IMG/VR virus record: IMGVR_UViG_3300017783_000233
Location: 1-22,432 of that record
Origin: a virus
DNA: 22,432 nt
Strand: one strand, 5' to 3'
Part shown: positions 3,510 to 22,432 of the stretch, in pieces
Position numbering within the stretch: position 1 is the first letter of the stretch
How the letters are laid out: every line of letters starts with the position of its first letter
The notes under the pieces: model-generated
Database searches by the model: none
Seen by the model: the letters and a program-made list of their open reading frames with translations, nothing else
Told to the model about the DNA's origin: nothing
Made by a program: the position numbers and the translations under genes

Positions 3510-4748
3510 CTAATTCCTACTTGCTTTGTCCCATCCTTTAAGTACATCGGGCGAAAAGTTGTTATAGGAAAATTCCATCCTATCCACCAATTTCACCGCA
3601 TCACCACCAAGTTTGTCGATTGCGACGAATCCTTCCTGACCCGTCACCTTGTATCCCTTTCGCGTCTTGACGAATGCGTCGATAGAAGCAAGAGAGTTCA
3701 GTTTATTTATAAGGATTAATTTGGCAAGAACTAAATTCTTTTGTAGTTCGAACATTGCTATTAATCCTGCAGTATTTTTCTTGGAGAAGAATTGTAGGAT
3801 AGCATTTAGTTTTGCCTGCTGCGCCTTCTTCCCCTTGTCAGTTTTTCTCTTATCCATTTCTGATTTATACTTTGTGGTCAACCATCTCTGTAGACCTATC
3901 ACGTGTCTGCGCGAGTCAGGGATGACTGTACCCTTGCGCACGAAAGTGTTGTTGTATTGCTCAATCAGTTGTGACAACTCAGTGTGTGCCTCCAACTGCC
4001 GCAGAGTTGTACCAGATATCTTCTGAAACAACCCACCAGCAATAGAAAGATACTCAGTCACCTTCTTTGTCTCTGCCTTGGACATCGTTGCCTTCTTTGA
4101 CACGTCACGCAGCATTGCGTCCTGTGACCAAACCTTTCGACTGTTCTTGAGTGCGCCCACGTTGACGCCATATGAGGCACGCATGTTCTCAAACGCATCA
4201 CCCTTGTAGGTGGTGTGCCATACGATACCGATACGAGCAGCACGTACTTCCTTCGCCCCCTGCGAGTTGAAGGGCAGAGCATAGACGATTGTGTTGGGGT
4301 GGAAGGTGGTATAACCTTGCCCAGCGATCTTCTTGGTCTTGACGTCTCCTGGACCGAACAAGAAGTCTCCCTGAATGACGCCCTTGATGCCAAGAGCAGG
4401 GAGTTCCTCGAGGGCAGCGTTGAGTTTGACGTTTAGGTCGCCTGATGTGTCGGCATCGACATCTGCTTTCGTTTTATAGACTTTGGGATTCTTATTAAAG
4501 ATACCTTTCTTTGCCACGAAGAACTTTCCGTCTCTTGGATCTGTTCCAGCAAAGATGGCAGGAGCACCGTCCCACTTGACAGAGATTGCTTGCTCGTGTT
4601 TGCCTTGGAGCATGTCACGCAATTCCCGCAGGGCATTGATTGCCTGCCTCGTGCCGTCGACTCCACCGTAGAGAACTTTGTCCTCGATGTGTTGCATATG
4701 GGTGTTTTTCTGTTCAGACAACAACTCTTGTTCAAAGAAGGTCTTCAT
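3510..4748 (-). CDS. ATP-dependent ligase-like covalent nucleotidyltransferase, 412 aa
   Basis: Residues 57-61 read VKWDG, matching motif I (K-x-D-G) of DNA/RNA ligases and capping enzymes, where the lysine (K58) takes the AMP or GMP. IQGDFLF (125-131) resembles motif III, VYALPF (155-160) motif IIIa, EGFV (372-375) motif IV and VKLVDR (385-390) motif V. About 200 residues of mostly helical, Lys-rich sequence separate IIIa from IV, which is unusual. It matches my memory of DUF6267-type phage proteins. The N-terminus MKTFFEQELLSEQ resembles a T4 capsid-targeting peptide, cleavable after L-S-E. The start overlaps the stop of the GIY-YIG gene (ATGA). Enzyme class is well supported by motifs; substrate is unknown. 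Confidence 0.75.
   Translation of the reverse strand: MKTFFEQELLSEQKNTHMQHIEDKVLYGGVDGTRQAINALRELRDMLQGKHEQAISVKWDGAPAIFAGTDPRDGKFFVAKKGIFNKNPKVYKTKADVDADTSGDLNVKLNAALEELPALGIKGVIQGDFLFGPGDVKTKKIAGQGYTTFHPNTIVYALPFNSQGAKEVRAARIGIVWHTTYKGDAFENMRASYGVNVGALKNSRKVWSQDAMLRDVSKKATMSKAETKKVTEYLSIAGGLFQKISGTTLRQLEAHTELSQLIEQYNNTFVRKGTVIPDSRRHVIGLQRWLTTKYKSEMDKRKTDKGKKAQQAKLNAILQFFSKKNTAGLIAMFELQKNLVLAKLILINKLNSLASIDAFVKTRKGYKVTGQEGFVAIDKLGGDAVKLVDRMEFSYNNFSPDVLKGWDKASRN
3704..3711 (-). promoter_or_regulatory. Possible internal late promoter TATAAATA
   Basis: A perfect TATAAATA octamer on the minus strand lies inside the 412-aa gene, about 200 bases before the start of the 196-aa head-like gene. T4 late promoters consist essentially of this octamer. 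It is also explained by coding (Leu-Ile-Asn-Lys-Leu), so it may be accidental. It would give extra late transcripts of the basic protein, nucleotidyltransferase, DUF5824 and exported genes. Confidence 0.35.
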
Positions 4749-5272
4749 TTTCGACCCCTCCAGTAACCTTCGGGTTGTGTGCCCTCGGTCACGTATATTG
4801 TTTTCTCACCGTTACAATACCACTTGAGGTTTTGCTCGGCAACAGCACTACGACCATACATCGGATTCTTCTCTCCTTTGGCGCAACCAGACTTTATTCT
4901 CCCTTCACTGGTGACCTTACCTCGTGCTGCTCTTTCTTCTTCGGTATAACTGTCCCAAGATTCTTTTGTGATCGCAGACATATCGGTGTCCTCATGGAAC
5001 CCTGTGTCTCCACCTCGTCCACCTTCGTGTAGGTTGTAGTAATCGGGGGAGGCAACTGCGTTAGTCTCTTCGATAAAGAACTGCTCTGCCTCCCTCAACT
5101 CTTCCTCGGAGGTGCACTCAACCAGTGTGCGTTTGGTGAAGTTATGCTTACCGTATTTCTGCATTGCGTGTTCGATCAACTTGCCTGATCCCATGTAACC
5201 TTTCTTGTTACCGTTGGTCATGCCAATATATTTCTTACCATTCAAGTTGTTGGTGGTCAGGTAGACTTCCAT
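4745..5272 (-). CDS. GIY-YIG homing endonuclease with NUMOD3-like motif, 175 aa
   Basis: The N-terminus has the GIY-YIG nuclease signature as VYLTT at residues 3-7 and KKYIGMT at 13-19, followed by GYMGSG and an EEL-EAE-FFI helix. GEKNPMYGRSAV near residues 133-144 resembles the NUMOD3 DNA-binding motif of phage homing endonucleases. The C-terminal WYCNGEKTIYVTEGTQPEGY segment resembles a small module seen at the ends of such enzymes. The role would be cutting a related phage genome so that the gene spreads. I chose ATG at 5272 (GAGG five bases upstream) over GTG at 5278. Its stop overlaps the next start (ATGA), so it is neatly fitted into the late operon. Confidence 0.88.
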   Translation of the reverse strand: MEVYLTTNNLNGKKYIGMTNGNKKGYMGSGKLIEHAMQKYGKHNFTKRTLVECTSEEELREAEQFFIEETNAVASPDYYNLHEGGRGGDTGFHEDTDMSAITKESWDSYTEEERAARGKVTSEGRIKSGCAKGEKNPMYGRSAVAEQNLKWYCNGEKTIYVTEGTQPEGYWRGRK

Positions 5273-5298
5273 TATCACCTCAGTTTCCGTATTTGTTG

Positions 5299-8138: not shown

Positions 8139-8805
8139 ATTGATCCCTTAGTACGATGAATTCTCCGATCCATTCGTCACGGTGCTCTACGAATACCTGA
8201 GACCCGCCTTCCTGATCAGTAACAACAGTGACCAGTTGAGTGATGGGTTGCCCCGTCATCTCTTCGTACATGACAGCATATGCTGCTTCCTGCTTGAAAT
8301 AGTTGTAGCATCGGGACCGTGTCTTTCGACGAGTCGAAGTCTTCCAGTCGATTACAGATAGTTTGCCGTTGAATTCAGCAACCATGTCCACGGTGCCAGC
8401 AGTCCGGAGATACTCAGAGTACATCAGACCTTCAACCAGTTTGATGTTGTCGATACTCTCGTTGGCGACATCGCGGAGTCGGGTGAACATGTCAGCAGCA
8501 TTGGGCATGATCTTGCCCTCGGACTCTTTGTTCTGGCAATAGTCCTCGATCAGTTGGTGAACTGACGTGCCCCGCTCACTCGCCTGCTTGGAGATCTTGT
8601 TGGCGGTTTCCGCACCAACTCGTCTACGCCACTCATGTAGTGCCTTCTTGGACTTCTTACAACCCGACAGGATCGTCGTAACAGAAGGGTAGGGGACACA
8701 CTCGCCATCAGCGAGTTGATAGTGCCTCTTGCCATCTACCTGCACCCTTTTGATTTTGGGTAACTCGACAAAGTCGAGGTTGAACTGCTTTCTTGCAAGT
8801 GCCAT
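8113..8805 (-). CDS. RecB/Cas4-like PD-(D/E)XK nuclease, 230 aa
   Basis: The RecB-type motifs appear in order: RGTSVHQLIEDY at 78-89 (H83), LVEGLMYSE at 123-131 (E125), GTVDMV at 137-142 (D140), VIDWKTS at 151-157 (D153 and K155), and QEAAY at 172-176 (Q172, Y176). These form the metal-binding nuclease core. I see no cluster of four cysteines, so an iron-sulfur site like that of Cas4 is unlikely. Such proteins in marine T4-like phages are usually called PD-(D/E)XK exonucleases and probably process DNA ends in recombination or repair. The start is the ATG at 8805, which overlaps the stop of the 125-aa gene. Confidence 0.88.
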   Translation of the reverse strand: MALARKQFNLDFVELPKIKRVQVDGKRHYQLADGECVPYPSVTTILSGCKKSKKALHEWRRRVGAETANKISKQASERGTSVHQLIEDYCQNKESEGKIMPNAADMFTRLRDVANESIDNIKLVEGLMYSEYLRTAGTVDMVAEFNGKLSVIDWKTSTRRKTRSRCYNYFKQEAAYAVMYEEMTGQPITQLVTVVTDQEGGSQVFVEHRDEWIGEFIVLRDQYEEENREV

Positions 8806-9498: not shown

Positions 9499-9650
9499 AT
9501 GCCTGCTTTCTCCACAGTGGATTTAATCTGGTCTTCAACCATTCGGATCGCAACGAGCAGACCATCTGCTTCGCCGTAGGTATCCATGGTGTCGACCGCA
9601 TGCTCATATTCACCAAGCAGTCGATCGCGGAGTTTCATCAACTCTTTCAT
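9495..9650 (-). CDS. Small helical protein, 51 aa
   Basis: This short frame starts MKELMKLRDRLLGEYEHAV and ends VEDQIKSTVEKAGI. It is predicted to be almost entirely helical and amphipathic. It fills the gap exactly between the UDG-like gene (TAATG overlap at 9650) and the 104-aa gene (ATGA overlap at 9498). That fit is the main evidence that it is real. Function is unknown. Confidence 0.7.
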   Translation of the reverse strand: MKELMKLRDRLLGEYEHAVDTMDTYGEADGLLVAIRMVEDQIKSTVEKAGI

Positions 9651-10282
9651 TATTGCTGCTCCTTGTTTGCGGCATCCGCATACATTCGCGCCACGTTCTG
9701 CTTACCCAGTCGGTTGACTGACAGGGGAGAAGGGTGTGGCAGTTTCACGAAACGACGACCGTTTGCCTCGAACGAGTCAACACCCTTGGCAGCACCGTAG
9801 TGCTTGCGCAAGGAGTCAAAGGCAGCATTACCGAGACACAATACAACCTCAGCGTCGACGATGTTTAACTCTGGTACAAGGTACTTCTCAACCGTGTAGG
9901 CAACATCACGTGCCTTCACAGGAGCAGTCATAGCACCTGACTTGACAAAAGGCATTGCGTTGGTACACCATACGCTCTCGCGGGTCTCGCCCATAGCGGC
10001 AAGGAAGTCAGCAAGGTGATGGTTGGTCTTGACACTATCGCAGTATCCGTGCTCTGCCATAAAGGCAACTTGTGAGTCGGTGCGTGAGTCAATAAAGTCA
10101 GCGGAACAAAAATCCTGCATGACGACCGCGATACGCGCATTCAGGTCACCGCCAACAGAAGGGGGAGAGATACCCTGACCAACGTTGAGGGCAGCAGGAA
10201 CGTGGGCGTACTCGTCACGGAGTGCACTGAGGTCATCAGCGCGGACCGCGTTCTTCAACTCATTTATCAATCGCTTTTTCAT
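9650..10282 (-). CDS. Uracil-DNA glycosylase superfamily protein, 210 aa
   Basis: LPHPSPLSVNR at 181-191 matches the HPSPLS motif of the uracil-DNA glycosylase fold, the loop that enters the DNA minor groove. WCTNAMPFVKSG at 105-116 and the strand AEVVLCLGNAAF at 144-155 fit the rest of the fold. The N-terminal motif (ARIAVVMQDFCSADF) differs from GxDPY-type UDG, so it is a divergent member. The role would be removal of uracil or another damaged base. A longer frame to 10405 exists, but promoter P2 lies inside it, so I start at ATG 10282. That ATG is 6 bases after the -10, implying a leaderless message. Confidence 0.8.
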   Translation of the reverse strand: MKKRLINELKNAVRADDLSALRDEYAHVPAALNVGQGISPPSVGGDLNARIAVVMQDFCSADFIDSRTDSQVAFMAEHGYCDSVKTNHHLADFLAAMGETRESVWCTNAMPFVKSGAMTAPVKARDVAYTVEKYLVPELNIVDAEVVLCLGNAAFDSLRKHYGAAKGVDSFEANGRRFVKLPHPSPLSVNRLGKQNVARMYADAANKEQQ

Positions 10283-10288
10283 ACTACT

Positions 10289-10349
10289 ATTATCGCTAAT
10301 TCGGGACACAAAGACAATGTTTTTAATCCCCTGCAAAATCAACAACTTA
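10289..10349 (-). promoter_or_regulatory. Early promoter P2 of the conserved cassette
   Basis: On the minus strand: TTGATTT (10342-10336), 18 bases, TTGTCT (10317-10312), 17 bases, GATAAT (10294-10289). The TAA stop of the DNA ligase (10349-10347) is at the upstream edge. It drives the UDG-like gene and the genes down to the HAD phosphatase. The start codon follows the -10 by six bases. Confidence 0.85.
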
Positions 10350-11465
10350 CACGTCTCTTCCGTTGGCGAATAGTGCCTTGGCGATAGGGAATCGAGGCAC
10401 CCCATCGGGCGTTCGGGTGAAGTACTGGACGGTCACCTGCCCCCCAACATAATCATCTCGGTTCTTCAGCAACTCTCGGGTGAACTCTTGGTTTCCTGCT
10501 AAACCCGACCCACACTCTCGACCGTCTTCGAGTTTGAACACGACACGCTTGGCATAACCTGCCCAGTTGCCTTGCCCTTCCTCAATACTAACGATCTCGA
10601 ACTCCATATCTTCGAAGTCTTTGCGCTTCATCAGCGTCTTGCTGCGCTTCTGTTCATAGGGTGAGTTCAATCGTATCATGCCACCCTCGTAACCCTCTCC
10701 GATAAATTCTCCGAAGTGCGCGTCAACTTCCTCCTCGTTGTATGCAACCAGAGTCTTAACGACTTCCAGTGCATTGTCTTTAATACCGAATCCCAGCAGG
10801 GCAGATCTCTCGTGGAAGTCAAGGTCCACGCTGGGCACATCATACATGTGGTATTGCACAGTCTCTGCTGCCTCAGCAGTATCTTCCTCTGTAGGTTTGG
10901 TCTTGCGTACCAGACTGATGATCTTGTTGAAGTCGTCCTTCAGGTCATGGTTGTATAACTCACCATCCAGAACCAGATCGGGGCGCGACTCAAACCAAGG
11001 TGCCAGTTGCTCGATGATATGAGGGCACGAGGTGATTGCCTTACCAGTGCGACTCCACATACCCTCTGCATTCACGATGCAACGTACACCGTCCAACTTG
11101 GGTTGGGTGTAGACCGGATACTCAATATTGTCCTTCAGGTCTTCCCACTTAGTGGCAAGCATGGGTTTGTAGAACTTTGCCACCGACGTGGACTCTAGAG
11201 TCTCGTGGTACTCGCCATCCAGTTTCTTGGTGTACTTGGCATCAACCTCGGCAACCGCCTGTTCTTCCGCAGTGGTAGCATTTGAACGACCTACGTTCTT
11301 GGGTTTTGCTTCCTTCCAACCAGAGATAACCTGCTGTCCACCTTGGACACCAGCAACAGTGCGATAGTTGGCACCGTCGATCTCCATACGCCACTCTCGG
11401 ACTTTGCCCTTCGAGTCGACCTTGAATATTGTTTCACCTATAATCACATGGTCCTTCCCAGTCAT
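10347..11465 (-). CDS. ATP-dependent DNA ligase, 372 aa
   Basis: The adenylation-domain motifs are present in order: KLDGVR at 123-128 (motif I, K123 takes AMP), VLDGELY at 165-171 (III), YEGGMIR at 259-265 (IV) and LMKRKDF at 278-284 (V). Residues about 290-372 fit the OB-fold domain. Residues 1-50 form an extra N-terminal beta domain (FKVDSKGKVREWRMEIDG) that resembles a WGR-like module. The enzyme would seal nicks during replication and repair. The start at 11465 overlaps the end of the 72-aa gene by 32 bases and has only a weak ribosome site. The gene ends at the edge of promoter P2. Confidence 0.93.
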   Translation of the reverse strand: MTGKDHVIIGETIFKVDSKGKVREWRMEIDGANYRTVAGVQGGQQVISGWKEAKPKNVGRSNATTAEEQAVAEVDAKYTKKLDGEYHETLESTSVAKFYKPMLATKWEDLKDNIEYPVYTQPKLDGVRCIVNAEGMWSRTGKAITSCPHIIEQLAPWFESRPDLVLDGELYNHDLKDDFNKIISLVRKTKPTEEDTAEAAETVQYHMYDVPSVDLDFHERSALLGFGIKDNALEVVKTLVAYNEEEVDAHFGEFIGEGYEGGMIRLNSPYEQKRSKTLMKRKDFEDMEFEIVSIEEGQGNWAGYAKRVVFKLEDGRECGSGLAGNQEFTRELLKNRDDYVGGQVTVQYFTRTPDGVPRFPIAKALFANGRDV

Positions 11466-13043: not shown

Positions 13044-13104
13044 ATTATCGCATATGGAGCATACAAAGACAAGTTTTAAAAACTTGAAGAAAATCAATAA
13101 CTTA
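13044..13104 (-). promoter_or_regulatory. Early promoter P3 of the conserved cassette
   Basis: On the minus strand: TTGATTT (13097-13091), 18 bases, TTGTCT (13072-13067), 17 bases, GATAAT (13049-13044). The TAA stop of the oxygenase gene (13104-13102) is at the upstream edge. The leader ATAGTTGAATGAGGTTA downstream is also found after P4 and carries the ribosome site. It drives the 158-aa gene through to the DNA ligase. Confidence 0.88.
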
Positions 13105-13716
13105 GTAAACCCTACCCCAATTGAAGGATATAGCGAGGCGGGATCTTTCTTTCGGGACTCTCTTCTGGGGTCCAATCTCGTGTTCCATCCATGCTGGCCA
13201 AACATTGATCATGCCTGTTTTGGGGAAATGCTTATATACTGAATCGCGATCCTTGAGACTTTCCTTGTCCCCCTCATCGTTCCAAGGTTCGGCGACTTGT
13301 AGCATGCCACTTGACGGATGCCTGAATCGAATCTCACAAGACTCTTCGTCAGCATATGGGTAGTAAGTCCCTGCTACAATTGCGCGGGGATGATTGTGAA
13401 GAGTATGCCTCTCGCCTTCCAGGTATTCTGAGAACCAGATATGGGTTTTATCACCACAACGGTTGAGGTCGACTCCCCTATCTTTGGCGAACATCTTAGA
13501 AGTTGATTCGAATGCGCGGAGAAGTTCTCTCCCTTGTGGGCATTCCATCAACATTCGATGGTTGAAATCCTGATCGAAGTAACTGGTGTAGTCGGAATGA
13601 CTGCCTAATTTTCCCCGCATGAAGTCTGCGATTTGCTCGTGATTGATGTCAAGGTATCCTGTACAGATCTCTGTCACTCGAGCAAACGGGTTAAAGAATT
13701 TGAAATCAGTAATCAT
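13102..13716 (-). CDS. 2OG-Fe(II) oxygenase-like protein, 204 aa
   Basis: The segment HTLHNHPRAIVAGTYYPYAD at 104-123 matches the first metal-binding region of the putative 2OG-Fe(II) oxygenases common in marine phages (H107 and H109). PAWMEHEI at 174-181 gives the distal histidine (H179), and SRLAISFNW at 192-200 contains the arginine (R193) expected to bind 2-oxoglutarate. Family members hydroxylate proteins or small molecules; the target is unknown. The stop is at the edge of P3. It overlaps the DUF3310 gene by 11 bases at the start. Confidence 0.85.
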   Translation of the reverse strand: MITDFKFFNPFARVTEICTGYLDINHEQIADFMRGKLGSHSDYTSYFDQDFNHRMLMECPQGRELLRAFESTSKMFAKDRGVDLNRCGDKTHIWFSEYLEGERHTLHNHPRAIVAGTYYPYADEESCEIRFRHPSSGMLQVAEPWNDEGDKESLKDRDSVYKHFPKTGMINVWPAWMEHEIGPQKRVPKERSRLAISFNWGRVY

Positions 13717-14304: not shown

Positions 14305-14516
14305 CACTTCACCGCCAATACGAATAATATTGCAATGAGTAGAATGTTAGTGAATGCAATTTCAATCGCGAGGATGGTATGATACCAAACCCATCTCGCT
14401 TTATAAACTTCATCCACATGACGGTTCTCCCCATCAGGTAGTTTCTCCAATATTGTCTTGTCAACTGGGTTCTCCTCGAGAGGAATACCCATCAACCTAT
14501 CCAACCATTTCTGCAT
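14304..14516 (-). CDS. Small single-pass membrane protein, 70 aa
   Basis: About 45 soluble residues (MQKWLDRLMGIPLEENPV and onward) are followed by one long hydrophobic helix near the C-terminus (TILAIEIAFTNILLIAILFV, then LAVK). The protein would be tail-anchored in the inner membrane with its N-terminus in the cytoplasm. Function is unknown. The gene overlaps the end of the 190-aa gene by 20 bases. Confidence 0.72.
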   Translation of the reverse strand: MQKWLDRLMGIPLEENPVDKTILEKLPDGENRHVDEVYKARWVWYHTILAIEIAFTNILLIAILFVLAVK

Positions 14517-15069
14517 AATGATCCCACCAAACAGGTTCGTCCCTGTTTTTCCATGTTAAACTAAACCGCTCTTTCTTGGTTGCATAGAAGTGACGGTATG
14601 AACCAACTACATCACTATAATTTATACACTCTGGATTAGACCCCATCGCCAGTGGCATCGGAGTTATGTCAAGAGTCATTGGAATGTTATCGGGTGCTCG
14701 ACATAATACTTCGCCCAGTCGGGTCCAAGCACCGTGCTCTCTGCCATACCGAAAGGTGTACTCTTCACAGAGTTCCTCGAACAGAGCATATGCCCACCTG
14801 TAGTTGCCGAGAGTCTCCATTGCCCATACTGTGCATGGATGTTTGTAGTGGACTGCCTTGTACAGATCAAGTTCGCGATCGTCTTCAAGTGCCCAGTACT
14901 TTGCCATTGTCTTGCCTGATGCTGACCGCCGCCGAGTCTCAGTACCATCGAGGATACGATGGACTGTGCTCAGCATCTGTGCTTCTTCGGTGGGCATCTT
15001 CACGATGTGCTTATCACAGTGGGACTGGGCACATTCTTTGGGTGTATCTTCAAGAACAAATCTATTCAT
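14497..15069 (-). CDS. Pyrimidine-dimer glycosylase-like protein, 190 aa
   Basis: The N-terminus MNRFVLEDTPKECAQSHCDK followed by HIVKMPTEEAQMLST resembles a phage family annotated as pyrimidine-dimer DNA glycosylase (PF03013-like): a short strand, then a D-K-H/R-V-V-K-M helix. Conserved-looking HYKHPCTVWAMETLGNYRW at about residues 74-92 also fits. These enzymes start repair of UV damage, which suits a phage of sunlit water. The assignment rests on N-terminal resemblance only, so related nucleic-acid enzymes remain possible. It is the first gene after promoter P6. Its ribosome site is weak. Confidence 0.65.
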   Translation of the reverse strand: MNRFVLEDTPKECAQSHCDKHIVKMPTEEAQMLSTVHRILDGTETRRRSASGKTMAKYWALEDDRELDLYKAVHYKHPCTVWAMETLGNYRWAYALFEELCEEYTFRYGREHGAWTRLGEVLCRAPDNIPMTLDITPMPLAMGSNPECINYSDVVGSYRHFYATKKERFSLTWKNRDEPVWWDHYAEMVG

Positions 15070-15099: not shown

Positions 15100-15127
15100 A
15101 TTATACGCATCCTCGATACAAAGTCAA
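15100..15127 (-). promoter_or_regulatory. Sigma70-like promoter P6
   Basis: On the minus strand: TTGACT (15127-15122), 16 bases, TATAAT (15105-15100). This is close to the bacterial consensus and lacks the TTGATTT box of P1-P5, though CTTTGT after the -35 is shared. The -35 overlaps the TGA of the 345-aa gene. It would drive the 190-aa gene through to the oxygenase at 13102. Confidence 0.8.
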
Positions 15128-16161
15128 CCCCTATTCTTGCGTATTGGATTGGTGGACATCTTCGCCTCACTCGTCCTTTTCGGTTTCGTTCCATCGGGAT
15201 CCTCGTTGAGGTCGATGCCGTGACCAGCATCATCAACCACAGTCTTCATCACCTCATATTCCTCAATGTCGTCGTCCGAGGGCAGGTCGTCGTCGATCGT
15301 CTCTTCCCACTCCTCGTCCTCAACAACTTTATATTGTGACATGTCAACGCTGACAGTCTCGAACTTATCCTCGAGATCCACCACGTTATCTGGATTGAAC
15401 ACCCTCATCTTCTCTTGCTCTCGTTGAGTGAACCCCTGAGTCGCCGCAAGTAGCAGCACAACCGCCAGTGGATCGAACGTAACGATGAGCATTATGATTA
15501 CGAAACGGACTGCCTCGTCGAACATGTCCTCTGCCTTGTCGCCGTAGATGAGTTCGGCGATGTATTTCAGAGGACCAACTTCAACCTCGATTGCGAGTTT
15601 CTCCTGTTGAATCGGCGTGAGTTCCGTTTGGAGTTCCTCAATGCGGATGTACGCAGCATCGATGCCCTCGTTGAGTGCCTGCCTTTCTTCTGCCTGACCC
15701 TTACGAGTTGCAATCGAACCTGAACGACCTCGAATTCTGTCGTAGTCGATAAGTGTTTGAACCTGAGCATCCAGTTGCGCGAGTACCGTTTCTGAATCGC
15801 CAATGATTGATTGCTGGCGAGCAATCTTCCTTTCCAAGTTACTGATTTGAAGTTCATTGGTTCCCCCTGTCGAGATAGAATGCTCAAGGTGTGCTTTGGA
15901 TAGGAAACCGAAGATGCCGAGCGAAGTGATAATCATTAGAACAAACACTGCAGTGGTGAGATATGTCTTCATCCACCATCGTGTCTTCTTCCAGTTTTGG
16001 TGCAACCAAGCAGCAGTGACGAGTTTACCAACCTCGAGCACGCCTCCCATGATTGCAATGGGTATGATGGCACCAGCAAAGATCGCCATGAGTCCGACGA
16101 TGCTGTACCACGCCGCGACTCCTGCAATTGCGAGTGCTGTTATTAGAGTGAGATAGATCAT
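15124..16161 (-). CDS. Membrane protein with periplasmic or cytoplasmic coiled coil, 345 aa
   Basis: Three hydrophobic segments lie at about 1-20, 23-45 and 66-88. A long heptad-like coiled coil follows (about 103-205: LERKIARQQSIIGDSETVLA and further). A fourth membrane segment lies at about 218-245 (FVIIMLIVTFDPLAVVLLLA). The last 90 residues are acidic and disordered. Proteins with this layout and the FDPLAVVLLLAA segment occur in marine T4-like phages, with no known function. GGAAG precedes the ATG. The gene follows tRNA-Pro by 14 bases in the same transcript as the tmRNA. Confidence 0.82.
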   Translation of the reverse strand: MIYLTLITALAIAGVAAWYSIVGLMAIFAGAIIPIAIMGGVLEVGKLVTAAWLHQNWKKTRWWMKTYLTTAVFVLMIITSLGIFGFLSKAHLEHSISTGGTNELQISNLERKIARQQSIIGDSETVLAQLDAQVQTLIDYDRIRGRSGSIATRKGQAEERQALNEGIDAAYIRIEELQTELTPIQQEKLAIEVEVGPLKYIAELIYGDKAEDMFDEAVRFVIIMLIVTFDPLAVVLLLAATQGFTQREQEKMRVFNPDNVVDLEDKFETVSVDMSQYKVVEDEEWEETIDDDLPSDDDIEEYEVMKTVVDDAGHGIDLNEDPDGTKPKRTSEAKMSTNPIRKNRG

Positions 16162-16175
16162 AGTGTCTTCCTTGT

Positions 16176-16252
16176 TGGTCGGAGATGCTGGATTCGAACC
16201 AACGACCCTCTGCTCCCAAAGCAGATGCGCTACCAGACTGCGCCAATCTCCG
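16176..16252 (-). tRNA. tRNA-Pro (UGG anticodon), CCA encoded
   Basis: The 77-base sequence folds into a full cloverleaf. The acceptor stem is CGGAGAT with ATCTCCG (7 of 7 pairs), and the D stem is GCGC/GCGC. The anticodon stem TCTGC/GCAGA carries loop TTTGGGA (anticodon TGG), and the T stem GTTGG/CCAGC carries loop TTCGAAT. The discriminator A and CCA are encoded. It follows the tmRNA on the same strand and precedes the coiled-coil membrane gene. It would read proline codons CCN, particularly CCA. Confidence 0.95.
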
Positions 16253-16267
16253 AAATAGGTGACACAC

Positions 16268-16664
16268 TTTGATTACAAGGCAGTGCCCGCCCCGTCTGTC
16301 AGTTCGCCGTACAGACCTCGCGTGAAGAACCCACCCTTTCGGTAACAAGGCGGTGGGCGTTCCTCGTCAAGACTTATGCTGCGAGAGCAAATTCCTGATA
16401 GTAGTTGTCATCGTTTGCAACTATTGGTTTGAACCCTGTTTTTACAGTCGGCGTTCATCGACTGATTCTCCACTTGCTTTCGGTTGCCCGTCGATTCCAG
16501 AGCACCCCCATCAGATACACACTTGCCGCATTTGGTTCCGATCAGGTGATAGTTCTCACTGTCGCCTGACCTTACACTGTTACAGATACACAAGAGCATA
16601 TTTGGTGGAGGTGTGGGGATTCGAACCCCAGTCCGCACTTCCTAATACAAGTTTCAACGAATAC
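16268..16664 (-). ncRNA. ssrA: Permuted (two-piece) tmRNA, tag ANDDNYYQEFALAA
   Basis: The gene is circularly permuted. The acceptor piece comes first: a T-arm with stem TGGGG/CCCCA around TTCGAAT (16630-16614), then CACCTCC, discriminator A and CCA ending at 16603. A 93-base intervening segment follows (16602-16510). The coding piece begins at 16509 with GGGGGTGCTCTGGAATCGAC, the typical tmRNA 5' end. GGGGGTG pairs with CACCTCC over seven pairs, including the G3-U70 wobble that marks alanine acceptors. The resume codon is at 16418-16416, and the tag ORF (16418-16374) encodes ANDDNYYQEFALAA and TAA. A PK1-like hairpin CAGTCG/CGACTG precedes the tag, and further hairpins (CCCACC/GGTGGG, GTCTGT/ACAGAC) follow. 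CAAGT and GAAT near the 5' end can pair with ACTTG and ATTC in the acceptor piece (P2-like). Outer ends are approximate. Confidence 0.96.
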
Positions 16665-16939
16665 TAAACCTCATCTGCTGCTACAGCACCCATCTTCTTC
16701 AGGTCTTCATGCTCACCAGACATCTTGAACATTCGACCATCTGGTATCATTACTGTTAACTGCTTGCGCAATTCTCGCAAACCGTGCACGCCTGGATATT
16801 TAGGATGAGGGTGATACGTGAAACCAACCCGCACAACCTCTCCGTAAAATAAGTCACTGGATGGATGGGGTCTCCAGCAGATCTTCTTTCCCACTTCGTC
16901 GAGGGGTGGGGGTATCACTTTCTTCTTTGCCTTTGCCAT
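16664..16939 (-). CDS. Hypothetical basic protein, 91 aa
   Basis: No family is recognised. It starts MAKAKKKVIPPPLDEVGKK, has a Trp/His/Pro-rich middle (CWRPHPSSDLFYGEVVRVGF) and a beta-hairpin LTVMIPDGRMFKMSGE. The beginning could be a small SH3-like barrel. AAGGTGA precedes the ATG. The stop codon abuts or overlaps the 5' end of the permuted tmRNA acceptor piece, so RNA processing would trim right up to this coding region. Confidence 0.72.
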   Translation of the reverse strand: MAKAKKKVIPPPLDEVGKKICWRPHPSSDLFYGEVVRVGFTYHPHPKYPGVHGLRELRKQLTVMIPDGRMFKMSGEHEDLKKMGAVAADEV

Positions 16940-18479: not shown

Positions 18480-19040
18480 CGTGCAAAATCCTGGCGCCAT
18501 TAGGACGTAGTTGCCCGAGGTGCCTCTGGGACAGACCTTGCGGTACTTGAGATTGCCGTTGGTGTCCTCGCACAGTGGATTACCGTATCCAGTGTACCAT
18601 GTTCCACTATAGCAGGGATCGGATTCGGGTTCCTCGTATCCACACTGATCGGAATTGATCGTGGGGCGAGTGTACGTTGCGCCGAAACCATTCGCCACAC
18701 GTTCGATCAGTGTCGTGCCAGTACACCCAGCAGATACCACCGTGCCGTTGGGGAAATACTCCTCTGGTTCCTCGGATGCCTGCACGCCGAGCAAGCATTC
18801 TTCGTCGTATCCATCCCCATTCGTGTCTTTGCATCGGAGGTCCACGTCCACTCCCAGGATTGTGACCGAGAGGTCGCCGTTGGGATATGTCGCCGTCGCC
18901 ACCACCTCGTCCAGTTCCTTCTCAGTCTCGAGAGTGAAGCACTGCCGTCCATTGTTTCCGACAAAGCAGATCTCGTACGAGAGGGCAGAACTTGCAGTGG
19001 GAATCAGCAGAAACAGAAGCAGCAGTCTATTCATCGACAT
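18477..19040 (-). CDS. Exported cysteine-rich protein with calcium-type motif, 187 aa
   Basis: Starts MSMNRLLLLFLLIPTASSAL, a signal peptide with cleavage near A-S-S-A. The mature protein has ten cysteines (for example EICFVGNNGRQC, RCKDTNGDGYDEEC, SDPCYSGT, CEDTNGN, KVCPRG). DTNGDGYDEE matches the DxNGDGxxD calcium-binding loop of thrombospondin type-3 or dockerin repeats, with a partial second copy DTNGN. It is therefore likely a disulfide-bonded, metal-binding periplasmic or surface protein. GAGG lies five bases before ATG 19040. It overlaps the oxygenase gene by 14 bases. Confidence 0.8.
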   Translation of the reverse strand: MSMNRLLLLFLLIPTASSALSYEICFVGNNGRQCFTLETEKELDEVVATATYPNGDLSVTILGVDVDLRCKDTNGDGYDEECLLGVQASEEPEEYFPNGTVVSAGCTGTTLIERVANGFGATYTRPTINSDQCGYEEPESDPCYSGTWYTGYGNPLCEDTNGNLKYRKVCPRGTSGNYVLMAPGFCT

Positions 19041-19623
19041 ACGAACCTCGATGCTCAAACCATCCAGTCAGAATGTACTTGGTCTCCTCGAGATCGGGAG
19101 AACTTCGATGCGGATGCGTGTATGCTGCTGGCCAGATCACCATGGTGCCCTCTGTTGGTTGCATTCGGATTCCCTGCACGGGAAAGTCCGTTCCTCCGTC
19201 TCGATGCACGTCGTTCAGATACAGCATCCACACAGCATATCTTCCTCGAGTGCTGTCTTGGGATCCCTGCTCCTGGTGCCACATACAGAATCCTCCGTAC
19301 GGAGATGTTTTCTGCATTTTATAGACCATGGATTGCCGCTCTGGTCTCCATCGCTCTGTCGCCGTGTGCAGTTCTTGTGGATCCCACTCGCTCTGCCGTG
19401 CAGCGAACCATCCAAAATACTCATCCGCACACTCCTTGAGTATGGAGGCGACTTGGTCTTGATGGGGGTGCAGAGAAGTGAATCTTTCCAGTTCCAGCGA
19501 AATGTCCTCTCGCTTCTGGTCGTCTCGAAAGTACAGACCGTTAATGCGCGTGTCATTCTCGATGGAGCGAGTGCCTCGTTCTTCATAGATTCGCTCCTCC
19601 TTCTCATTGAAGCACGCGATCAT
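19027..19623 (-). CDS. Prolyl-4-hydroxylase-like 2OG-Fe(II) oxygenase, 198 aa or longer
   Basis: The double-stranded beta-helix motifs are present: CMWHQEQGSQ at 113-122 (H116 and E118 as HxE), YAVWMLYLNDVHRDGGTDFP at 129-148, and TMVIWPAAYTHPHRSSP at 160-176 (distal H170 or H172). K182 is a candidate 2-oxoglutarate ligand. HxE instead of the usual HxD is worth noting. The first ATG is at 19623, but the frame upstream (to about 19680) still reads like this family's N-terminus (GDSIGIWKNRVPADTCRE). The real start may therefore be a non-ATG codon. Function: hydroxylation of an unknown target. Confidence 0.82.
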   Translation of the reverse strand: MIACFNEKEERIYEERGTRSIENDTRINGLYFRDDQKREDISLELERFTSLHPHQDQVASILKECADEYFGWFAARQSEWDPQELHTATERWRPERQSMVYKMQKTSPYGGFCMWHQEQGSQDSTRGRYAVWMLYLNDVHRDGGTDFPVQGIRMQPTEGTMVIWPAAYTHPHRSSPDLEETKYILTGWFEHRGSYVDE

Positions 19624-21692: not shown

Positions 21693-21732
21693 TGTTTCTC
21701 CAAGGGGCGAGAGACATTCAGTTTCGATCTAA

Positions 21733-21747
21733 CGGGATTCAGTCCCG
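21733..21747 (-). promoter_or_regulatory. Leader hairpin CGGGA/TCCCG downstream of P5
   Basis: A perfect 5-base stem with a 5-base loop lies in the 5' leader of the P5 transcript, about 40 bases before the ribosome site. It may stabilise the message or bind a regulator. P1-P4 have much shorter leaders without it. Confidence 0.4.
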
Positions 21748-21773
21748 ACCAGTTGTCCCTCAACTCAGAGACT

Positions 21774-21834
21774 ATTATCCTATAATAGAGACACAAAGAC
21801 AAGTTTAAGAAAGTGTAAGGAAATCAATAGGTTA
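21774..21834 (-). promoter_or_regulatory. Early promoter P5 of the conserved cassette
   Basis: On the minus strand: TTGATTT (21827-21821), 18 bases, TTGTCT (21802-21797), 17 bases, GATAAT (21779-21774). TAACC at the upstream edge matches the other copies, although here no gene ends at this TAA. It drives the small-gene operon and probably everything down to P4. Confidence 0.88.
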
Positions 21835-21980
21835 TGATAGAGGAGAGAGAACAGTTTCGCAGTAGACATACAGTATAATGACGTGTAGAGAGGCGGTTTT
21901 ATTCCCTGGGAGTTATACCGTTTCCTTCTAACAGAGTGGTGGGGTTAGACTCAGATGGTGGGACAGAGGGCAGTGACCCC

Positions 21981-22070
21981 ACTCGATCCGACTCCATACC
22001 ACTCGATCCGACTCCGAGTGACTCCATACCACTCCAGACACATGCAGACCACTCTCCACCACTCGATCCC
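21981..22070. repeat. 10-base phased ACTC repeats
   Basis: ACTC recurs at 21981, 21991, 22001, 22011, 22021, 22031, 22051 and 22061, skipping only 22041. ACTCGATCC occurs at 21981, 22001 and 22061, and ACTCCATACC at 21991 and 22021. The 10-base spacing is close to one DNA helical turn, so sites face the same side. It resembles binding-site iterons or a bent segment. Confidence 0.65.
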
Positions 22071-22252
22071 ATTGCGTATCTCTCTCCACAGGCGCATACA
22101 CTCTTTCCATACAGAAAACACGCGAGGTATATTATCTGTAGTGTTTTCCCCTAATAATCGATTCGATGTTAGAGTTTTCCTCTCTTATCCTACGAAACGC
22201 TCTCTATGCTTTCTCTCTGCAGTATTTGTTAGGATTGTATATGGTTATAGGA

Positions 22253-22330
22253 GTGTGGAGAACAGATAAGAGAGAGGGAGAGAGGCGCTGTAGAGGGAGA
22301 TATAGAGAGAGGGAGAAAGAGTGTACATAG
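22253..22330. repeat. GA-rich low-complexity tract
   Basis: The plus strand is strongly purine biased here, with runs such as AGAGAGAGGGAGAGAG and GAGAGAGGGAGAAAGAG. There is no coding frame. Such tracts can form unusual DNA structures or arise by slippage. Confidence 0.5.
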
Positions 22331-22353
22331 AGACTATCCTTTACTAGATCGAT

Positions 22354-22432
22354 CTATTTATTATCGTTCTCGAGACCCTGCTTTACCTGTGCGATTAGAT
22401 GGGATTCGAGTTCTGTTAGATCAAGAGAGTGT
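22354..22432 (-). CDS. C-terminal fragment of a protein (runs off the right edge)
   Basis: An open frame enters from the right edge and ends at TAG (22356-22354). It reads HSLDLTELESHLIAQVKQGL followed by ENDNK, a plausible helical C-terminus with the same style as the other small phage proteins. Only 25 codons are visible, so identity is unknown. Confidence 0.5.
   Translation of the reverse strand, partial: HSLDLTELESHLIAQVKQGLENDNK

Follow-up and report, generated by a model that had tools for sequence, protein, structure and literature searches.

Two-piece tmRNAs of the alpha, beta and cyano types are encoded in bacteria by circularly permuted genes, and genes of the same plan have been reported in phages. 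Methylophilales phage Melnitz, a marine T4-like phage, was described in 2022 as carrying a two-piece tmRNA; a count over the phage genomes of a 2021 database gave 53 two-piece tmRNAs, including 50 aquatic ones, and one was present in 17 of 47 contigs related to Melnitz (PMC9004378). A tmRNA database lists 79 phage sequences (PMC11915505), and in Mycobacteriophage Wildcat the tmRNA is the most highly expressed lytic gene (PMC7474061). Here we describe a locus in a 22.4-kb IMG/VR virus record, the whole of which is referred to below as the window. The window gene shares with Melnitz ssrA its permuted, two-piece form, a tag of its own (ANDNYVPVDYALAA in Melnitz) and a marine T4-like phage background without SmpB. 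The two differ in that the alpha model gives the highest score for the Melnitz tmRNA (106.7 bits) and the beta model for the window gene, and in that the Melnitz tmRNA adjoins the late-transcription coactivator gene downstream of an exonuclease, whereas the window gene is located elsewhere. The Melnitz tmRNA has also been reported together with a glutamine riboswitch (PMC9004378).

Complete permuted tmRNA genes scoring above the Rfam cut-off were also found in Stenotrophomonas phage DLP_6, Pelagibacter phage HTVC008M and Ruegeria phage RpAliso (Table 1). Their tags (ANDDSFAPMAIAA, ANFNEYALAA and ANENFAPVEMAVAA, respectively) differ from that of the window, and the intervening segments of DLP_6 (31 nt) and RpAliso (30 nt) are shorter. 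In DLP_6, a tRNA-Pro(UGG) lies just downstream of the tmRNA, as in the window. Since several isolated phages thus carry genes that are missing from their annotations, the trait is under-counted in phages, and isolated carriers such as RpAliso and DLP_6 make it testable in culture. Permuted tmRNA genes are present in dozens of IMG/VR contigs as well. With these cases and the 53 published ones, the view taken in an earlier sequence-only reading of the window, that the permuted form is unusual in a T4-like phage, does not hold, and the window gene is a good example of a kind of phage tmRNA that is already known.

The window contains a two-piece tmRNA gene that is real, complete and apparently intact. 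The general permuted model of Rfam (RF04321, tmRNA_permuted; gathering cut-off 47 bits) matched positions 16374-16662 of the minus strand with 95.8 bits (E = 9e-18), and ARAGORN independently called a permuted tmRNA at 16283-16699 of the same strand, with the tag ANDDNYYQEFALAA. Both results agree with the sequence-only reading, which had proposed a circularly permuted tmRNA with its own tag and a covariance-model search as a check, and which had left the strand unmentioned. The extent given there, 16268-16664, located the gene correctly but probably stopped short of the end of the 3' domain, which appears to reach about 16259, where the second of two predicted pseudoknots closes.

Table 1. 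Coordinates of the tmRNA gene, its parts and its neighbors in the window, and of permuted tmRNA genes in three phage genomes.
Feature	Coordinates	Strand	Basis or remark
Whole permuted tmRNA gene	~16259-16663	minus	Rfam, ARAGORN, stem search
Acceptor piece: 5' pairing region, T-arm, acceptor 3' strand, encoded CCA	16603-16663 (5' end approximate)	minus	Rfam alignment, ARAGORN, comparison with L069
Acceptor stem 3' strand CACCUCC, including U70 of G3-U70	16607-16613	minus	Pairs 7/7 with 16503-16509
Intervening segment, 93 nt	16510-16602	minus	Not expected in the mature RNA
Coding piece: acceptor 5' strand, D-loop-like region, tag frame, 3' pseudoknot domain	16259-16509 (3' end inferred)	minus	Rfam, comparison, stem search
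Acceptor stem 5' strand GGGGGUG, including G3	16503-16509	minus	Rfam, acceptor-stem comparison
Tag reading frame ANDDNYYQEFALAA and stop, resume codon GCA	16374-16418	minus	ARAGORN; differences from L069 mainly synonymous
Predicted H-type pseudoknot A, UGACGAGG/CCUUGUUA with GCCCACC/GGUGGGU	16329-16369	minus	Exhaustive stem search; coincides in part with the 3' region matched by beta_tmRNA
Predicted H-type pseudoknot B, ACGGGGCGG/CUGCCUUGU with GGCAC/GUGUC, one G shared at the junction	16261-16295	minus	Stem search, comparison
tRNA-Pro(UGG), directly downstream, same cassette	16176-16252	minus	Rfam, ARAGORN
Conserved small gene, upstream side of the slot	16664-16939	minus	58% identical in L002, 40% in L003
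Conserved gene, function unassigned, downstream side of the slot	15124-16161	minus	Identity 77% to L003, 54% to L002 (partial) and 47% to Pelagibacter phage Mosig
HTVC008M permuted tmRNA	KC465899.1 145161-145370		No tmRNA feature there in the deposited annotation
DLP_6 permuted tmRNA	KU682439.2 102838-103059		No tmRNA feature there in the deposited annotation
RpAliso permuted tmRNA	OR257569.1 2895-3116		No tmRNA feature there in the deposited annotation

The acceptor piece, with its T-arm and CCA, lies upstream and is followed by the intervening segment and then by the coding piece, which starts at 16509. The stop codon of the upstream gene directly precedes the acceptor piece, whose CCA is encoded (16605-16603). 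The two acceptor strands, GGGGGUG and CACCUCC, pair over their full length and form a tRNA-Ala-like acceptor stem with G3-U70. This perfect pairing, the upstream position of the acceptor piece and the 93-base segment between the pieces had already been read from the letters and are confirmed here. A second helix between the two pieces can be read from the sequence, with ACUUG (16652-16648) opposite CAAGU (16476-16472) and further pairs between AUUC (16662-16659) and GAAU (16468-16465). The T-arm and the resume region are intact, and the tag ends in LAA. The coding piece folds better than each of 200 shuffled sequences (z = -2.6), and according to the stem search its 3' domain could form two H-type pseudoknots. 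The predicted fold of the intervening segment has an energy of -27 kcal/mol (z = -2.4). The segment contains a strong hairpin and, at its two sides, a near-repeat (TTGTGTATCTG, GTGTGTATCTG), and it looks like an insertion.

The closest relative that was found, the IMG/VR contig IMGVR_UViG_3300040856_002803 (L069), has phage genes in common with the window, and the mature parts of its tmRNA gene are approximately 88% identical to those of the window gene (acceptor piece, 56 of 64 bases; coding piece as far as the stop of the tag, 119 of 136 bases). The differences in the T-stem are compensatory, the sixth acceptor pair is U-A in the window gene and C-G in L069, and a hairpin in the coding piece, CAGUC/GACUG in the window, reads CAGAC/GUCUG in L069. 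The tag of L069 is ANDDNYYEDFALAA; six of the 14 tag codons carry silent changes and two carry replacements (Q/E and E/D), both of which are conservative. At the level of the sequence, this comparison shows selection on the RNA structure as well as on the tag, as would be expected of a working tmRNA. Other parts of the two genes differ more strongly, since the intervening segment is only 12 nt long in L069, and the 3' domain of L069 has one pseudoknot, with the shape of pseudoknot B, instead of two. The L069 tmRNA is moreover followed by a cell-wall hydrolase-like gene, and the window tmRNA by tRNA-Pro. The window therefore adds a well-preserved phage two-piece tmRNA for which a close relative reveals selection on both structure and tag.

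The acceptor stem was also compared among the clearly delimited phage genes, leaving out L018, whose coding start was misplaced, and 11 loci with a T-arm off the pattern. G3-U70 is invariant in all of these genes, and compensatory variation is seen at acceptor pairs 5 and 6 and in the T-stem. The shortest of their intervening segments has 4 nt and the longest 229 nt, so that the 93-nt segment of the window gene is ordinary in length.

The slot between two conserved phage genes that holds the tmRNA and tRNA-Pro (16162-16663) has different contents in related phages. The tRNA-Pro starts only a few bases beyond the coding piece. In relative L003, the two flanking genes almost abut and the slot is empty (1554-1565). 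In L002, of which the DNA is approximately 70% alike to the window over the aligned stretches, the slot (8277-8765) contains a Hydrolase_2 cell-wall hydrolase gene; the possibility that a diverged tmRNA is located there was rejected. In L069, positions 10150-10689 hold the tmRNA and then a hydrolase-like gene that resembles the one of L002, as read from sequence and likeness. Because the slot contents vary among relatives, the most fitting view of the tmRNA is that it belongs to an exchangeable cassette set between fixed phage genes, and the empty slot of L003 and the other gene in L002 indicate that it is dispensable in this group. In Melnitz, HTVC008M, L010, L016, L056, L061 and L062, the tmRNA is instead located near a relative of the exonuclease gene, at a distance of a few hundred bases to a few kilobases, thus the position of the tmRNA differs between phage groups. 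No sigma-70-like promoter was found near the window gene, so its expression would depend on read-through or on phage promoters.

The protein matches of the window genes point to a phage related to the T4-like Kyanoviridae, in support of the earlier reading of a T4-like phage. One window protein is 67% identical to a protein of Phage C48C1 (Kyanoviridae) and occurs in Melnitz, HTVC008M and cyanophages as well, an exonuclease is shared with Kyanoviridae, and the nearest relatives of the ligase are those of Rhodobacter and Sinorhizobium phages. No T4-type structural gene was identified in the window, and the label T4-like therefore rests on these phage relatives. In Phage C48C1, a relative at the protein level, no tmRNA was found.

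The sequence-only reading had suggested that the gene may have been captured from an alphaproteobacterium. The window gene clears only the general permuted model and stays below the cut-offs of all three bacterial lineage models: beta_tmRNA (RF01850) scored best with 65.1 bits against a cut-off of 84, followed by alpha_tmRNA (RF01849) with 39.8 against 50 and cyano_tmRNA (RF01851) with 30.3 against 70. The alpha and cyano models had been suggested as checks of the gene. With all lineage models below their cut-offs and the beta model best, alphaproteobacterial capture is not supported for this gene. Melnitz, HTVC008M and RpAliso score above the alpha cut-off, and in DLP_6, L062 and L037 the beta model is best and its cut-off is cleared. 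The window tag appears to resemble that of Caulobacter, and the host of the window phage may still be an alphaproteobacterium.

Pattern searches gave a further view of the distribution of such genes. The exact acceptor-piece and tag patterns had no matches in viral contigs, and looser patterns matched 49 viral contigs for the acceptor piece, which is an upper figure because some of these loci are standard one-piece tmRNAs or have a doubtful or no ARAGORN call, and 15 for the tag. Acceptor-motif matches in six Campylobacterota were rejected as donors, as these have ordinary one-piece tmRNAs, and a blastn match in Synechococcus phage S-CRM01 had a doubtful tmRNA call and a tag of odd form. This tag-type pattern, still a strict one, matched those 15 viral contigs but no genome among 84,980 from bacteria and archaea. 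This distribution hints at a phage lineage, and since the pattern is narrow it is a hint and not a proof. We consider it unlikely that the gene belongs to a phage-specific lineage of two-piece tmRNAs (with ANDDxYYxxFALAA tags) whose tag or structure is adapted to infection and which differ functionally from host tmRNAs; in that case, tagged proteins might for example be routed differently, or SmpB might be won from the host tmRNA while the phage tmRNA remains active.

In line with the sequence-only reading, no match to SmpB (PF01668) turned up in the window, which is a genome fragment. The same holds for four phages with complete genomes and a permuted tmRNA gene, Melnitz, HTVC008M, DLP_6 and RpAliso; ten bacteria used as control were positive. 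As no phage SmpB is encoded, SmpB of the host would be required. The gene most likely yields a functional tmRNA, which during infection would add to the trans-translation capacity of the host. While the anatomy of the gene and the selection on its structure and tag are shown by the sequences, we infer expression, cleavage, charging, tagging and benefit from the tmRNA family. Host tRNA-processing enzymes would cut the transcript in two, and the acceptor and coding pieces would stay joined by the acceptor stem and the second inter-piece helix (16648-16662 with 16465-16476). G3-U70 would let host alanyl-tRNA synthetase charge the molecule, and host SmpB would deliver it where a broken mRNA has stalled a ribosome. 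The nascent chain would then gain the tag A-ANDDNYYQEFALAA, and its LAA end would direct it to ClpXP-type proteolysis. Very probably, the phage thus encodes a permuted tmRNA that is processed by the host, charged, delivered by SmpB and used to tag nascent chains; the likely purpose is that ribosomes remain free in the infected cell.

The phage RNA might instead act as a decoy that captures the SmpB of the host and so blocks trans-translation there. There is precedent in Mycobacteriophage DS6A, which encodes little beyond the tRNA-like domain, a molecule that strongly inhibits tmRNA (PMC4131195; PMC11915505). However, a decoy would have no need of the full tag, stop and LAA end, which are kept here under synonymous-biased change, and we regard this reading as quite improbable. 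Slightly less credible again is that the gene is a hitch-hiking copy of a host gene, or part of a mis-binned bacterial contig, and has no function in the phage. Two syntenic relatives do lack the tmRNA gene, but the window genes match those of phages (Kyanoviridae, Sinorhizobium and Rhodobacter phages), a second phage contig conserves the complete gene with compensatory changes, and the strict tag pattern is confined to viral contigs in the scan described above.

The absence of this pattern from the bacterial and archaeal genomes could also fit selective retagging, in which the phage tag would lead to another protease or adaptor than the host tag and host proteins would be recycled for virus production, as has been proposed for host proteins with Melnitz (PMC9004378). 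The window tag is of the usual AND...LAA form, however, so the same ClpX-type route is expected, and retagging seems to us the least probable of these readings. Both the decoy and retagging are made less likely by a tag that is complete, conserved and ordinary in form; we favor a working tmRNA that supplements that of the host.

Several other features of the window were noted. A GIY-YIG-type homing endonuclease gene (PHROG 314; 4745-5278) adjoins a conserved gene at 3510-4748, and two distinct 2OG-Fe(II) oxygenase genes are located at 13102-13716 and 19027-19623. The final 0.7 kb (21700-22432) is without a convincing gene and contains simple-sequence-like stretches (CACTCGATCCGACTCC, GAGAGAGGGAGAG). 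A DNA repair set comprises a uracil-DNA glycosylase superfamily protein (9650-10405), an ATP-dependent DNA ligase (10347-11465) and a protein with a weak likeness, below the Pfam cut-off, to pyrimidine dimer glycosylase (14497-15069).
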